A stretch of DNA of 22,972 nt. Source: a virus. Below the pieces are notes generated by a model. It ran no database searches and was not told the DNA's origin. It was given only the letters and a program-made list of their open reading frames with translations. The position numbers were made by a program, and so were the translations under genes. Shown piece after piece: positions 5,668 through 10,087 of the stretch. Where the stretch lies: the IMG/VR virus record IMGVR_UViG_3300039191_000476, positions 1 through 22,972 of that record, one strand, 5' to 3'. Positions within the stretch are counted from its first letter, which is position 1; every line of letters begins with the position of its first letter.

Positions 5668-7125
5668 ATGCCAGGCTCGACTCACATGCGCAGCACCTGG
5701 GTGCTCCGCATCCCAGGCTACGGGCCTACAGTGCCCGGCCCCACGCTCTTCGACCCGACCTCTATCGAGAGCATAGCCCATCGCTGGCGCGCGTCCAAGG
5801 GGACGTTTACGGGGCTGGACGGTACGGGGGCGGCTTCCAGCGGGGACCCGGTCGGCACGTGGACGGACGAGATCGGGGCGGTTGATCTGGTCGCACCGTC
5901 GACGAGCGCCCGCCCGGCGCTCATTACCATAGGGCGTACTCCGGTTGTCGATTTCGATGGGACAGATGATGCGCTGGCGACGGTCGTGGATGGAATAGGT
6001 ATATCGCTCGAGAGCACGATTTGGCTCGTGTGTACGTATCCCACGACAGAAAGGCGTATTTTTGATACCGTGGAGGGCGGCAACGTCGATCGTATGATGA
6101 TGAATCGACTTGATTCGAGCCATCAATTTTACATTTCGGGCAGAATCCTATCGTCTGTGTCGACGCATGATCCCGGCGACTGGATGGTACCAGCCCTGAG
6201 CGCAAACACGTCAACGGTGTTTGCGCATGTTGACGCCGTTCAAAAGGGGACCGGAAATGAGTCCGTAGGTTCAGGTGTTCGAGATCTGAGACTCGGATCA
6301 TCGAACACGGGCACGTCCTTCTACCCTGGTAAGATCGCCGAAGTGTTAGTATTCGATGATGATTTGAGCACTGAACAGTTGCGTGAACTCCAATCATACG
6401 CATTCACGGCCTACGGCGACGATCTCGGTGTCCTCGCGCCCCTGGACGTGGGTGATCCTCTCAACTTCTTCAGCCTCGTGGACTATCTCGACGCGCGCAC
6501 GCTCTCGGCGACCCTCTCAGAAGGCGACGCCGTGGCTACGTGGGCAACCGTTATAGAGGGAAGCTTAGGTGGCACACAGACCGTCGTTGCCGATCGTCCG
6601 ACGTATCGAGCCGCAGGTATCGGATCAGGCCCCTCTGTCGAGCTGGACGGGGTGAGTGACAACGTTCTTTGGATCCCAGCCCTGAGCGTCACGTCCCACA
6701 CCCTACAGTTCCTACTTGAGCTGGATTCCATCGCCGATGATCAAAGGATCGTCGACTGCTCGACGGGGCGGCTCATCGTCCGTGTGAGAGGGACCACGGG
6801 TGCCCTCGAGATCCTGTCGGGCGGGAGCGGTTACATCGATGCAGGTGTTACACTCTCCACCGCCACACCGTACCTCCTGACTCTGAGGTTCAGAGGAGCC
6901 GACGATCAGGTCGACGTGTGGGTCAATGGCACCTCGGCGGCGACGAATCTGACATACGATCCCGTAGACTTCCGAACATCTACGCGTCTCGGGTCCGGCG
7001 TGGGTGCTGACCGGGAGTGGCTGACTGGTCACATCGGTATGGCGGCCGCCTACGATAGAGCGCTCACGGATACCGAGATCGGTGACACATACACGTACGT
7101 CTCAAAAGCCTGGACCTTACCATGA
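5668..7125 (+). CDS. Two-domain LamG/concanavalin-like virion protein
   Basis: A 485-residue protein; AGGTGA lies 6 nt before the ATG. It consists of two copies of a LamG-like (concanavalin A-type beta-sandwich) unit. Copy 1 (about 60-250) has W64..DEIG, RPALI...PVVDFDGTDD (82-101) and ends GKIAEVLVFDDDLSTEQLRE (221-240). Copy 2 (about 288-480) has W292, RPTYR...PSVELDGVSDN and ends GHIGMAAAYDRALTDTEI (454-471). Such domains bind sugars or cell-surface polymers. Residues 1-55 may anchor it to the particle. It sits between neck and tail-terminator genes rather than with the fibres. About 5930-6420 is visibly poorer in GC than the flanks, which suggests later acquisition. Its stop overlaps the next start. 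Confidence 0.7.
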   Translation: MPGSTHMRSTWVLRIPGYGPTVPGPTLFDPTSIESIAHRWRASKGTFTGLDGTGAASSGDPVGTWTDEIGAVDLVAPSTSARPALITIGRTPVVDFDGTDDALATVVDGIGISLESTIWLVCTYPTTERRIFDTVEGGNVDRMMMNRLDSSHQFYISGRILSSVSTHDPGDWMVPALSANTSTVFAHVDAVQKGTGNESVGSGVRDLRLGSSNTGTSFYPGKIAEVLVFDDDLSTEQLRELQSYAFTAYGDDLGVLAPLDVGDPLNFFSLVDYLDARTLSATLSEGDAVATWATVIEGSLGGTQTVVADRPTYRAAGIGSGPSVELDGVSDNVLWIPALSVTSHTLQFLLELDSIADDQRIVDCSTGRLIVRVRGTTGALEILSGGSGYIDAGVTLSTATPYLLTLRFRGADDQVDVWVNGTSAATNLTYDPVDFRTSTRLGSGVGADREWLTGHIGMAAAYDRALTDTEIGDTYTYVSKAWTLP

Positions 7126-7502
7126 CCGAGTTCACCTACCGTATCCTCGCCGTCGTCCCCGACGGTCCCGCATACGATGCGGCTCGCGGCGCGATGGCCC
7201 AGGTCACGAGCGTCCCCGAGGACGCGACGGCGACGTGGCGCAAGGCGTCCGACGTCGAGGATTACACTGTCACGCATCGCGTGGCGGATATGCTCGCTCG
7301 AGCCTCCGACGTGCGCCTCCTCCCAGGACTCGCGACCCAGGTTGGCGGGTCGTTCCATGTCCTCGAGAGCGGACGAGGAACGGCTCAGATGACTACGGTC
7401 CAGACCCGCGCGGCGGCCCTAGTCACGGCCGGCGTGGTCCTGCTCCAGCCCGTCATCGGAGAGGACGGAGAGCCTACGGGCGCCTACGAGCCTTCGGAGT
7501 AA
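7122..7502 (+). CDS. Unknown protein coupled to LamG gene
   Basis: A 126-residue protein whose ATG overlaps the LamG-protein stop (ATGA), so it is probably translated with it. The sequence is soluble with a mixed alpha/beta pattern: MTEFTYRILAVVPDG, an Ala-rich helix (ADMLARASDVRLL) and a hydrophobic strand (ALVTAGVVLLQPVIGEDG) near the end. There is no recognised family. Coupling suggests a chaperone or anchoring partner for the LamG-like protein, as tail fibres often have, but this is inference from position. Confidence 0.65.
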   Translation: MTEFTYRILAVVPDGPAYDAARGAMAQVTSVPEDATATWRKASDVEDYTVTHRVADMLARASDVRLLPGLATQVGGSFHVLESGRGTAQMTTVQTRAAALVTAGVVLLQPVIGEDGEPTGAYEPSE

Positions 7503-7565
7503 CCGCCTAGACAAGCAGACCGTCGTCGTGTAACTTAGCGGGCGGACCCTACTAGGAGGTGTACT

Positions 7566-7583
7566 ATGGTTCAGATTTTCTGA
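7566..7583 (+). CDS. Possible 5-codon minigene MVQIF
   Basis: A full AGGAGG Shine-Dalgarno (7554-7559) stands 6 nt before ATG, followed by only four sense codons and TGA (MVQIF). It lies upstream of the island promoter and far from any other start codon. It could be a leader peptide, a translated minigene that stalls ribosomes, or the stump of a deleted gene. Confidence 0.3.
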   Translation: MVQIF

Positions 7584-7628
7584 CCTATTCTGCGGCATGA
7601 CCGCCGCGATCATCCGTACACTTCTCTC

Positions 7629-7656
7629 TTGACGAGCGCGACTGCGCGCGTATAAT
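7629..7656 (+). promoter_or_regulatory. Sigma-70 promoter of the tRNA island
   Basis: TTGACG (7629-7634) and a perfect TATAAT (7651-7656) are separated by 16 nt. The predicted start of transcription, about 7 nt after the -10, falls at about 7663, the first base of the 10-bp stem closing the tRNA-like RNA. It should drive transcription of the whole tRNA cluster to the terminator at 8382-8418 by host RNA polymerase, separately from the late structural message. Confidence 0.75.
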
Positions 7657-7662
7657 CATCCT

Positions 7663-7787
7663 GGCAGGTAGTACAAGGTCGAGGTCTGGTCCTCGACGGG
7701 TAGTCTGGCTTGAACCCAGACGCCCCGGCATAGTCGCCCCTTCGAGGGACGGCCTGCCGCGCGGTTCGAGTCCGCAGGCTACCTGCC
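7663..7787 (+). ncRNA. Atypical tRNA-like RNA, Ser(UGA)-type anticodon loop
   Basis: A 125-nt segment is closed by a 10-bp helix (GGCAGGTAGT at 7663-7672 with GCTACCTGCC at 7778-7787, one G-U). Inside, in tRNA order, are a D-like hairpin with an overlong 7-bp stem (7678-7684/7691-7697) and loop TCTGGT, an anticodon-like hairpin with a 6-bp stem and loop CTTGAAC (7709-7715, anticodon UGA), a large variable-arm-like hairpin (CGGCA 7726-7730 / TGCCG 7755-7759), and a T-arm (GCGG TTCGAGT CCGC, 7761-7775). It is too long for a standard class II tRNA, and the junctions do not match one. It may be a divergent tRNA-Ser, a tRNA-Sec-like form, or a separate structured RNA. CCA is not encoded. Confidence 0.5.
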
Positions 7788-7791
7788 TCGC

Positions 7792-7862
7792 AGCGGGTCA
7801 GAGAAATGGTAACTTGCGGGGCTCATAACCCCGAGAACTGGGTTCGATTCCCAGACCCGCTA
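7792..7862 (+). tRNA. tRNA-Met(CAT), initiator-like
   Basis: A complete cloverleaf of 71 nt including the discriminator A. The acceptor AGCGGGT/ACCCGCT (7792-7798/7855-7861) is perfect. The D-arm has a 3-bp stem with A11-U24 and a GG-containing loop. The anticodon arm is CGGGG CTCATAA CCCCG with CAT at 7824-7826, and the T-arm is CTGGG TTCGATT CCCAG. Three G-C pairs at the base of the anticodon loop and A11-U24 are initiator-tRNA traits, but position 1-72 is an A-U pair rather than the bacterial mismatch, and position 8 is C instead of U. CCA is not encoded, so the host must add it. Confidence 0.88.
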
Positions 7863-7984
7863 TATCCACGATGCGCCTACGCACCGGGTAAGACGCCGCC
7901 TAATTAGCGGACACACTGCCCGGATGCGCTCGAACGGTCGTTCAAGGCGAGAGGCACATTGACCTGGTACCGGGTCAAGGTCCC
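7863..7984 (+). other. Structured spacer without a clear gene
   Basis: No open frame or proper tRNA is seen here. Short hairpins are present: CCGC CTAATTA GCGG (7896-7910), GAACG/CGTTC (7932-7942) and TTGACC/GGTCAA around 7959-7978. ATGCGCC (7871) can pair with GGCACAT (7953) at 6 of 7 positions, but no sound D-arm or T-arm lies between them. It may be spacer or a decayed tRNA gene. Confidence 0.4.
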
Positions 7985-8060
7985 TACGTAACGACGCCCT
8001 CGGAGGGCGCATCGAGGCTAGACACTTCGATGACTCGGGTTCGATCCCCGGGCGGACGTA
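7985..8060 (+). ncRNA. Degenerate tRNA-like fold
   Basis: Three hairpins are in tRNA order with correct spacing. The D-like one has CGCCC/GGGCG and loop TCGGA (7995-8009). The anticodon-like one has loop CTAGACA (8018-8024) on a stem that can extend to 8 bp (CATCGAGG/CTTCGATG). A 5-nt variable loop follows, then a canonical T-arm TCGGG TTCGATC CCCGG (8035-8051). The acceptor is poor: only TACG (7985-7988) pairs with CGTA (8057-8060) before mismatches. In register the anticodon would be AGA with C at position 37, which is unusual. It is probably a decayed or highly divergent tRNA gene. Confidence 0.35.
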
Positions 8061-8135
8061 TCTCGGATGTGCTACGCGTACCTCGTCGGTACGACGTGGC
8101 CGTAACTCGGGGGAAGATCCCGAGGTCCGAGTTGA
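8061..8135 (+). other. Hairpin-rich spacer before tRNA-Trp
   Basis: CGTACC/GGTACG (8077-8082/8088-8093, loop TCGTC) is a clean 6-bp hairpin. It is followed by a region with two competing folds: AACTCGG/CCGAGTT around 8104-8133, or CTCGGG/CCCGAG within it. No open frame or tRNA is seen. It could be processing spacer or a small structured RNA. Confidence 0.35.
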
Positions 8136-8208
8136 GCACGAAAGGCCCAAGTGGACGGGCGCCGGATTCCAATCCCGGAGGTTCCTGGTTCGAAGCCAGG
8201 TTCGTGTG
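8136..8208 (+). tRNA. tRNA-Trp(CCA)
   Basis: The acceptor GCACGAA/TTCGTGT (8136-8142/8201-8207) has one terminal G-U. The D-arm is GCCC/GGGC with loop AAGTGGAC. The anticodon loop is TTCCAAT, anticodon CCA at 8169-8171, on a stem with one A-C mismatch at its top. The T-arm CCTGG TTCGAAG CCAGG is perfect. Discriminator G73 (8208) is the tryptophan identity base in bacteria. CCA is not encoded. Confidence 0.85.
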
Positions 8209-8211
8209 TCA

Positions 8212-8294
8212 CGAAGAGCGCCGGAGCGAGAGAGCCGGGGCGGACTGTAAATCCGCTGTCTTGTACTGAGTAGGTGCGAATCCTACCTCTTCGA
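8212..8294 (+). tRNA. tRNA-Tyr(GTA)
   Basis: A class II tRNA. The acceptor CGAAGAG/CTCTTCG (8212-8218/8287-8293) is perfect. The D-stem is CCGG/CCGG with a 10-nt loop. The anticodon arm is GCGGA CTGTAAA TCCGC with GTA at 8247-8249, the variable arm is 13 nt (8257-8269), and the T-arm is GTAGG TGCGAAT CCTAC with TG instead of TT at the start of the loop. Discriminator A (8294) fits tyrosine. It begins 3 nt after tRNA-Trp. CCA is not encoded. Confidence 0.88.
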
Positions 8295-8302
8295 CTCACC
8301 GC

Positions 8303-8373
8303 CCGATCCCACGAGGGTCGGACCTAAACGCGCACATAGCGGTACGCGCCGAGCGAGAGGGTAACTCTCGCTC
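8303..8373 (+). other. Two hairpins between tRNA-Tyr and terminator
   Basis: The first is CCGA-T-CCC / GGG-TCGG with loop ACGA (8303-8321). The second is a perfect 9-bp stem GAGCGAGAG/CTCTCGCTC with loop GGTAA (8351-8373). No tRNA T-loop and no open frame are present. They may protect or process the 3' end of the tRNA transcript, or form a small RNA released with it. Confidence 0.4.
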
Positions 8374-8381
8374 TCTAATCC

Positions 8382-8418
8382 GAGCCCTTCGACCCTACGT
8401 GGTCGAAGGGCTCTTTTT
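8382..8418 (+). terminator. Strong intrinsic terminator of the tRNA island
   Basis: A perfect 13-bp stem (GAGCCCTTCGACC / GGTCGAAGGGCTC) with loop CTACGT is followed at once by TTTTT. This is a textbook Rho-independent terminator, placed 23 nt before the tail terminator gene. Late transcription reaching the tail genes from upstream must pass it or start anew. Confidence 0.9.
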
Positions 8419-8441
8419 GTGCGCCCACGAGGTCCCCGACG

Positions 8442-8957
8442 ATGGCTGTGTACGAACCCTTGATACAAGCCGTCCGCGCCTGGGTCGCCGACTCTCTCGA
8501 GCTCGACGACCCTGCCAACGAGGTGATCCCGGCCGCCGAGGGGCCGGACGCAGGGCCTCGCCCACGTGGGACCTACTACGTCGTCCACCTCCTGTCCGTC
8601 GGACAGAGGCTCGGGCCAACCGAGACCAGCTACGACGTGGCCGGTAAGGTTCGCTCGACGCCCATGCGCGGCGTCGTACGCATCGAAGCGTTCGGAGAAG
8701 GAGGCTACGACGGCCTCCTGTGCCTCCTGAGCTTCGTGAGCGAGCTATACGACCCTGTGTCCCTGACTCCGATCACGGACGTCCAGCGCATCGCTGGGCT
8801 GTTCTCCGGCGAGGTTCGCATCGAGCCCCGAGCAGTCATCGACTTCGACGCCCATTACAACCTCGAGACCGCCCCCGGCTCGGAGACGCCCTTCGTCGAA
8901 GCGCTCGGCCTCGACCTCGAAACCAACGAGGGCGACCTCGCCTTCGACTTCGACTGA
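8442..8957 (+). CDS. Tail terminator / neck terminator protein
   Basis: A 171-residue protein beginning with a helix (VYEPLIQAVRAWVADSLEL), followed by PRGTYYVVHLLSV, beta strands in which residues 75-95 read VVRIEAFGEGGYDGLLCLLS, and an acidic C-terminus. This layout fits the phage neck-terminator group (the LIC_12616 type), which caps the tail tube and joins it to the neck, and the gene directly precedes the sheath gene as those do. The Shine-Dalgarno is weak (GAGGT about 10 nt upstream). The terminator hairpin lies just upstream. The assignment is mainly by position and strand pattern. Confidence 0.6.
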   Translation: MAVYEPLIQAVRAWVADSLELDDPANEVIPAAEGPDAGPRPRGTYYVVHLLSVGQRLGPTETSYDVAGKVRSTPMRGVVRIEAFGEGGYDGLLCLLSFVSELYDPVSLTPITDVQRIAGLFSGEVRIEPRAVIDFDAHYNLETAPGSETPFVEALGLDLETNEGDLAFDFD

Positions 8958-8983
8958 GACACATCTAAAAGGAGCACAGATCC

Positions 8984-10087
8984 ATGGCTATTTCCTTCGA
9001 CGGCAACGTTAACATCGTTGTCTCTTTCGCCGCCGACGCCGAGCGCTTCGACGGCTTCGGTACGGTCGTCGCGCTCATCGCGCACGACCCATCCTCTCCC
9101 ATCCTCGATGGGGACCGCTACCGCGTGTACACGTCTGCCTCTCAGATCGCGGCCGACCTCGCCCTCGCGACGCCCGAGCTCACCGCTGGCATCGCCGCGC
9201 AGATCACGACCGCCTTCGCTCAGGACCGTGCTCCGTCGCGGATCATCCTCGCGCAGTACGAGGCCGGGGGGAGTCCCGAGGTCCCCTCGGACGCGATCGA
9301 CGCGTTGGACGCCGACGGGGTCGCGTACTACGGTGTCGCGCTGCTCACCGACTCGGCCACGGACGCGGCGGACCTCGCCACGAAGATCGCCGCCCGTCGA
9401 GGGGGCACCGATCCCAAGTACGCGATCGGAGCGGCCACGCTCAGCGGGGCGGCCATGCTCGACGGCTCGATCGTCGAGGCCTCCGGGGCGCTCGAGGACC
9501 ACGCCGCAGCGACCGACTTCTGCGTCCAGTACCACGACGGTACGGGCACCGGCGCGGCGCTCGGCTTCGCGCGTCTCGTCGCGCGCCTCGGGTACGACCC
9601 GGACCTCGGCACCGCCGGGTTCGAGGGCGTCGTCCGAGGCATCGAGGCGTACGCGACCGACCCGACGCCCACGCAGCGCCTGGCCATGGAGGGCGCGGAC
9701 ATCGAGCTCTACGGGCAGTTCGGGGGTCAACCCTACGTCTCCCCCGGCGTCTCACTCTCCGGGCGCCCGCTCGCCGAGCAGGTATCGATCGACTGGTTCG
9801 CGATTCGGTTCGCCGAGGACCTCCGCCAGCTCAAGCTCCGCCGCGACGCGGCCGGTAAGCAGATCCCCCTCTCCGCCGAGGGACAGGAGTACATCCAGTC
9901 CGTCTTTGCGAAGAGGCTCGCCATCGGCGAGGCCGCCGGGAAGTTCGACCCGGGCGTCTCCGAGCTCAACCTCCCCGACCCGATCCCCGCCTCGGATATC
10001 ACCGCCGAGCGGTTCTCCGGCGACGGGACGCTCGCGCTGCTTCGAGGCGGTCGCATCTTCTCGCTCACGTTCACGGCCTCGGCCTGA
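8984..10087 (+). CDS. Tail sheath protein (DUF3383-like)
   Basis: A 367-residue protein with AAGGAG upstream of the ATG. The first 120 residues have the form of sheath proteins of the DUF3383 type: NVNIVVSFAADAE, FGTVVALIAHD, then YRVYTSASQIAADL, where a time-of-entry pattern like 'Y.s.s.v..df' is usual, and a segment listing residues involved in inter-subunit packing. The C-terminal part (RPLAEQVSIDWFAIRFAEDL, then helices and LPDPIPASDITAERF) resembles the conserved sheath core. Sheath subunits surround the tube and contract at infection, so this gene is what marks the phage as contractile. It is followed 28 nt later by the tube gene, the normal sheath-tube order. Confidence 0.75.
   Translation: MAISFDGNVNIVVSFAADAERFDGFGTVVALIAHDPSSPILDGDRYRVYTSASQIAADLALATPELTAGIAAQITTAFAQDRAPSRIILAQYEAGGSPEVPSDAIDALDADGVAYYGVALLTDSATDAADLATKIAARRGGTDPKYAIGAATLSGAAMLDGSIVEASGALEDHAAATDFCVQYHDGTGTGAALGFARLVARLGYDPDLGTAGFEGVVRGIEAYATDPTPTQRLAMEGADIELYGQFGGQPYVSPGVSLSGRPLAEQVSIDWFAIRFAEDLRQLKLRRDAAGKQIPLSAEGQEYIQSVFAKRLAIGEAAGKFDPGVSELNLPDPIPASDITAERFSGDGTLALLRGGRIFSLTFTASA

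Follow-up and report, generated by a model that had tools for sequence, protein, structure and literature searches.

Described long and irregular tRNAs

An 8/4 type of serine tRNA was reportedly described in bacteria and phages by Mukai et al. 2017. The tRNA-Sec has been called the longest tRNA, with 90-101 nt (PMC5330540), and its family (RF01852) shares with the element described here the class II form, a 7-bp D-stem (in archaea), a 6-bp anticodon stem and a 4-bp T-stem (9/4). SerRS was found to accept the 7/5, 8/5, 9/4 and 8/4 branches (PMC7609411). The allo-tRNAs of the 8/4 and 9/3 types contain a long acceptor with a short T-stem and a long variable arm, along with a long D-stem in the 9/3 type, and the allo-tRNAs and irregular tRNA polycistrons of soil metatranscriptomes contain extra sequence between the acceptor and the D-stem and several irregular tRNAs in one transcript (PMC7609411). 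All of these features were also found in the present element. A 12-bp branch is retained in the allo-tRNAs, most of which have anticodons other than those of serine; the element has a serine anticodon, and its branch is not a clean 12 bp. No report of an allo-tRNA or irregular tRNA of its length was found in the literature.

The tRNA operon and its first gene

The DNA analysed here (the window) was an IMG/VR fragment of 22,972 nt, which is the sole DNA through which the phage is known. The fragment was found to belong to a contractile-tailed phage with 65% GC, encoding a head protease, major capsid protein, tail sheath, tape measure and baseplate wedge. A non-coding transcription unit was present between structural genes, one ending at 7502 and the next starting at 8442 (Table 1). 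Its sigma-70-type promoter was the sole such site within 7000-9000, with 0.4 expected. The +1 predicted from -7 at 7656 was 7663, where a 10-bp helix begins, and the near-perfect promoter with a start at about 7663 that an earlier note on this DNA had claimed was thereby confirmed.

Table 1. Features of the tRNA operon, with positions counted from the first base of the window
Feature	Positions	Strand	Remarks
Sigma-70-type promoter, TTGACG-16 nt-TATAAT	7629-7656	+	11/12 consensus bases
Oversized tRNA-Ser(UGA)-like RNA, first gene of the operon	7663-7787	+	outlined at 125 nt; uncertain mature ends
Closing (acceptor-like) helix, 5' strand GGCAGGTAGT	7663-7672	+	pairs with 7778-7787
D-like arm, 7-bp stem GTCGAGG/CCTCGAC, loop TCTGGT (contains GG)	7678-7697	+	pair probability 0.98
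Anticodon arm, 6-bp stem GTCTGG/CCAGAC, loop CTTGAAC	7703-7721	+	U33, anticodon TGA, A37
Hypertrophied variable arm, three-part hairpin of 5+4+4 bp with internal loops	7726-7759	+	
T arm, 4-bp stem GCGG/CCGC, loop TTCGAGT	7761-7775	+	
Closing helix, 3' strand GCTACCTGCC	7778-7787	+	last GCC may be G73-C74-C75
tRNA-Met(CAT), next operon gene	7792-7862	+	ARAGORN; RF00005 58.5 bits
Second irregular tRNA-like element	7870-8062	+	z -3.81; low confidence
tRNA-Trp(CCA)	8136-8208	+	ARAGORN; RF00005 43.6 bits
tRNA-Tyr(GTA)-like gene	8212-8293	+	recognised by eye; missed by ARAGORN and RF00005
Intrinsic terminator of the tRNA operon, 13-bp stem (8382-8413) then TTTTT	8382-8418	+	

The RNA 7663-7787 was found to fold at -69.1 kcal/mol with z = -4.97 (0/200 shuffles), and the minimum free energy structure was identical to the centroid. 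The fold was a five-way junction in which the 10-bp helix, with U-G as its last pair, encloses D-, anticodon-, variable- and T-like arms in tRNA order, as the earlier note had outlined. The anticodon stem was found to be extendable by pairing of GGGT (7698-7701) with GCCC (7722-7725) across a bulged A, which goes beyond that outline. At the junction of the acceptor and T arms, A7776 and G7777 were unpaired on the 3' side and a 5-nt linker was present on the 5' side, so that a 12-bp stacked branch needs two mismatches. These fall beside the T-stem in the 8/4 frame, and the fold favours 10/4 with two unpaired bases. When the entire 757-nt transcript was folded, the helices persisted with mean pair probabilities of 0.68-0.98 (0.81 for the 10-bp closing helix).

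Three frames of the mature ends were found to fit. The frame 7663-7788 contains a 10/4 branch, no leader and a U discriminator, the frame 7666-7785 contains a 13-nt branch as in tRNA-Sec, G73 followed by an encoded CC and a 3-nt leader GGC paired with GCC, and the frame 7667-7784 contains a 12-nt branch and a 4-nt leader. The possible absence of a 5' leader is thus one of three frames between which the sequence cannot choose.

Family searches and viral tRNA-Ser(UGA) relatives

The RNA 7663-7787 was not detected as a tRNA by ARAGORN. A scan with the Rfam tRNA, tRNA-Sec and tmRNA models, as the earlier note had proposed, yielded a full-length alignment with tRNA-Sec (RF01852) as the sole matching family, at a sub-threshold 19.9 bits (threshold 47), and no match to RF00005 (threshold 29 bits). 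A tmRNA was rejected, as none was found by ARAGORN or in the Rfam scan. The likeness to tRNA-Sec that the note had drawn is therefore real in alignment and weak in score. Ordinary viral tRNA-Ser(UGA) genes (L191 and L207), taken as a control, were also found to match RF01852 best among the matches listed, at 36-39 bits and above the tRNA model, so the likeness to tRNA-Sec is mostly a class II likeness.

The motif pair GGCTTGAACCC...GGTTCGANTCC was found in 30 viral contigs of IMG/VR, which contained tRNA-Ser(UGA) genes save for two or three chance matches; the anticodon loop with its closing pairs together with GGTTCGANTCC is, judging from these contigs, diagnostic for tRNA-Ser(UGA). From them, 23 distinct genes were delimited (among L179-L207), all with the loop CTTGAAC, which fold as class II tRNA-Ser(UGA) of 81-89 nt. 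In most of them the branch was of the 8/4 type (8-bp acceptor, 4-bp T-stem) and the D arm was minimal, and RNAalifold of 16 aligned relatives also returned an 8-bp acceptor and a 4-bp T-stem. The G-CC 3' end was present in 15 of the 23, and in the element at 7785-7787.

The viral class II tRNA-Ser(UGA) genes of the 8/4 type (e.g. L207:5305-5387 and L191:3718-3798) and the element were found to share the CTTGAAC loop closed by GG/CC, the T-loop GGTTCGANTCC with a 4-bp T-stem, a short GG-bearing D-loop, a long variable arm and the 3' GCC. The element contains the features expected of the anticodon arm (a 7-nt loop with U33, TGA and purine 37 on a 6-bp stem), of the T arm (a TTCRANY loop closed by GG/CC) and of the long variable arm, which is longer than in the 23 relatives. 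Its closing helix is 10 bp, whereas the acceptor of the viral genes is 7-8 bp; its variable region is about 39 nt, against 14-22 nt; and the 7-bp D-stem and longer linkers are its own. Its total length is about 118-126 nt, compared with 81-89 nt in the 23 relatives and about 85 nt in a usual serine tRNA. In all 23 relatives the acceptor helix extends into leader and trailer by at most one pair.

When the window was searched with a covariance model built from 16 relatives, the element itself being excluded, only tRNA-Met ranked above the element (21.1 bits, E 0.0014), and the Tyr-like gene came third. The model misplaces the 5' acceptor strand of the element and its score is partly circular, the relatives having been chosen by shared loop motifs, so that it supports the arms of the 3' half and not the whole element. 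The divergent Ser(UGA)-type tRNA that the note had suggested is supported by the motifs of the anticodon and T loops, by the setting in the operon and by comparison with the 23 viral genes. The element is read as a relative of tRNA-Ser(UGA) with a 4-bp T-stem and hypertrophied acceptor, D and variable arms; on its sequence, 7663-7787 is a genuine gene of the tRNA family whose dimensions are new and which tRNA finders miss.

Search for the oversized form elsewhere

Motif searches of IMG/VR and GTDB for TGA-anticodon forms with these loops yielded no homologue of the oversized form from which covariation might be read, and among the matches listed only coding DNA, chance matches and unrelated tRNAs were found. 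An exact search with the anticodon arm gave no match, and blastn of the element against phage genomes gave nothing significant. A single-sequence covariance model of the element found little beyond itself and normal tRNA-Ser genes; as the model misses normal tRNA-Ser genes in genome mode, its silence means little. Searches of IMG/VR with the sheath and the major capsid protein yielded no close phage relative, and the 54 distant capsid relatives (24-28% identity over the alignment) contained no tRNA in the stretches examined.

Controls against chance folding

The minus strand of 7663-7787 was found to fold equally well (z -5.1), and 9 of 1746 coding windows of the same GC-rich phage were at least as stable as the element, so the fold energy alone proves nothing. 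Energy being a weak guide in a phage of 65% GC, the arrangement itself was tested. Helices with 9 bp or more and a span of 85-170 nt were taken, and for a full match the fold had to retain the helix and enclose four hairpins, no more and no fewer, of which the second carried a loop of 7 nt containing U33 and purine 37 and the fourth a TTCRANY loop. In the window, 84 helices of this kind gave 6 five-way junctions and a single full match, 7663-7787, whereas the 860 helices in 344,897 bases of GC-rich viral loci gave 52 five-way junctions and not one full match; it is by this arrangement that the observation is confirmed. The motif pair GG-CTTGAAC-CC followed by GGTTCGANTCC at 20-50 nt was found once in the window and never in its shuffles.

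Interpretation of the element

The promoter, the terminator, the neighbouring tRNAs, the anticodon arm, the T arm, the long variable arm and the 4-bp T-stem can be read directly from the DNA. The element probably heads a phage tRNA operon and would encode a class II tRNA-Ser(UGA) of 118-126 nt, in which the anticodon loop and the T-loop are conserved and the acceptor, D and variable arms are lengthened. Since host RNA polymerase would start at 7663, the leader would be 0 to 4 nt. Host enzymes would trim the 3' end and complete the CCA, host SerRS would charge the RNA through its long variable arm and not the anticodon, and the tRNA would read UCA (and UCG by wobble) during infection, replacing or supplementing the host tRNA-Ser. 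The enlarged shape may, speculatively, make a poor substrate for host nucleases that target tRNAs.

A decoding tRNA is favoured by the promoter and terminator, which bracket a non-coding unit with recognised tRNAs. Engineered allo-tRNAs with hairpins at the tip of the variable arm stay active in translation, whereas a bulge in the variable stem abolished their charging by SerRS (PMC7590224), and the internal loops in the variable arm of the element count against decoding in this respect. The imperfect acceptor junction (A7776 and G7777), the lack of a homologue and the failure of ARAGORN and RF00005 to recognise the element also count against it. The UCA codon is rare in the genes of the phage itself (4.0 per 1000), which makes codon supply a weak motive.

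The main rival of a decoding tRNA-Ser(UGA) is a non-decoding decoy or regulator derived from tRNA-Ser, which would occupy a host factor that binds tRNA, such as an anticodon nuclease, SerRS or RNase P. This is considered unlikely. In its favour, the stems are longer and not decayed, the recognition loops are intact, and the transcript contains several more irregular stretches rich in hairpins; soil metatranscriptomes have also yielded irregular polycistrons of tRNAs that E. coli synthetases could not charge (PMC7609411), which gives the irregular operon a precedent. Against it, no target or partner gene was identified, the neighbouring Met, Trp and Tyr genes resemble decoding tRNAs, and nothing in the sequence separates a decoy from a decoding tRNA, or speaks for or against the tRNA-mimicking regulatory RNA that the note had raised. 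One source contains the proposal that phage tRNAs evade tRNA-targeting defences (PMC10264068). That the elements 7663-7787 and 7870-8062 form an enlarged tRNA set, of a size class beyond tRNA-Sec, which evolved to escape or titrate such host defences or to fit altered translation factors, is a rather doubtful suggestion. A drifting tRNA-Ser pseudogene, with insertions in the linkers and the variable arm, is improbable: the unpaired AG at the T/acceptor junction, the mismatches in any 12-bp frame, the lack of a homologue and the irregular neighbours would fit such drift, but the insertions form long uninterrupted stems and not broken ones (with the D-stem and the closing helix at the pair probabilities given above), and a strong promoter and a terminator are retained.

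A chance fold of GC-rich DNA, to which the equally stable coding windows and the folding minus strand might point, is very improbable and already largely refuted by the controls, in which the arrangement with its loop motifs and the motif pair were absent; the element moreover sits in a tRNA operon at the +1 of its promoter. A selenocysteine tRNA is hardly credible. The full-length RF01852 alignment speaks for it, and the lengths of the D-stem and variable arm of the element, along with an anticodon stem of 6 bp and a T-stem of 4 bp, resemble the archaeal type (PMC5330540), but the anticodon is TGA and not TCA, ordinary viral tRNA-Ser(UGA) genes outscore the sub-threshold element on RF01852, its length exceeds 101 nt, and it contains extra linker bases.

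A charged and decoding element would exceed tRNA-Sec in length and would show how much additional RNA in the variable and D arms is tolerated by the translation machinery, which would be useful in tRNA engineering. An uncharged element would be a candidate tRNA decoy. Either way, standard finders miss phage tRNA genes, as the Ser-like and Tyr-like genes were unreported by ARAGORN or RF00005.

Other elements of the operon

The tRNA-Met was found to contain initiator-like marks, namely three G-C pairs beside the anticodon loop, A11-U24 and a weak A1-U72 end pair. The Tyr-like gene contained the T-loop TGCGAAT and a D-loop without GG. It was matched by an annotated tRNA-Tyr of Rhodococcus phage Francesca, and a similar unannotated Tyr-like sequence with the T-loop CGCGAAT was present in Lactobacillus phage Satyr (L208, about 291-379). 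The minus-strand tRNA-Glu that ARAGORN reported at 8098-8178, in overlap with tRNA-Trp, is probably a false prediction.

The second irregular element contained a canonical T arm CTCGGG-TTCGATC-CCCGGG (8034-8052), an 8-bp hairpin with the loop CTAGACA, a GG-looped hairpin and three extra arms between the acceptor and D positions. Its closing helix GATGCGCC/GG-A-CGTATC was found with a pair probability of only about 0.44 in the whole-transcript fold. Within the tRNA transcript, 8071-8124 and 8351-8373 contained strong hairpins of 12 bp (bulged), 7 bp and 9 bp but no T arm, and the near-palindrome TTGACCTGGTACCGGGTCAA at 7959-7978 inside the operon may be an operator or a mere hairpin.
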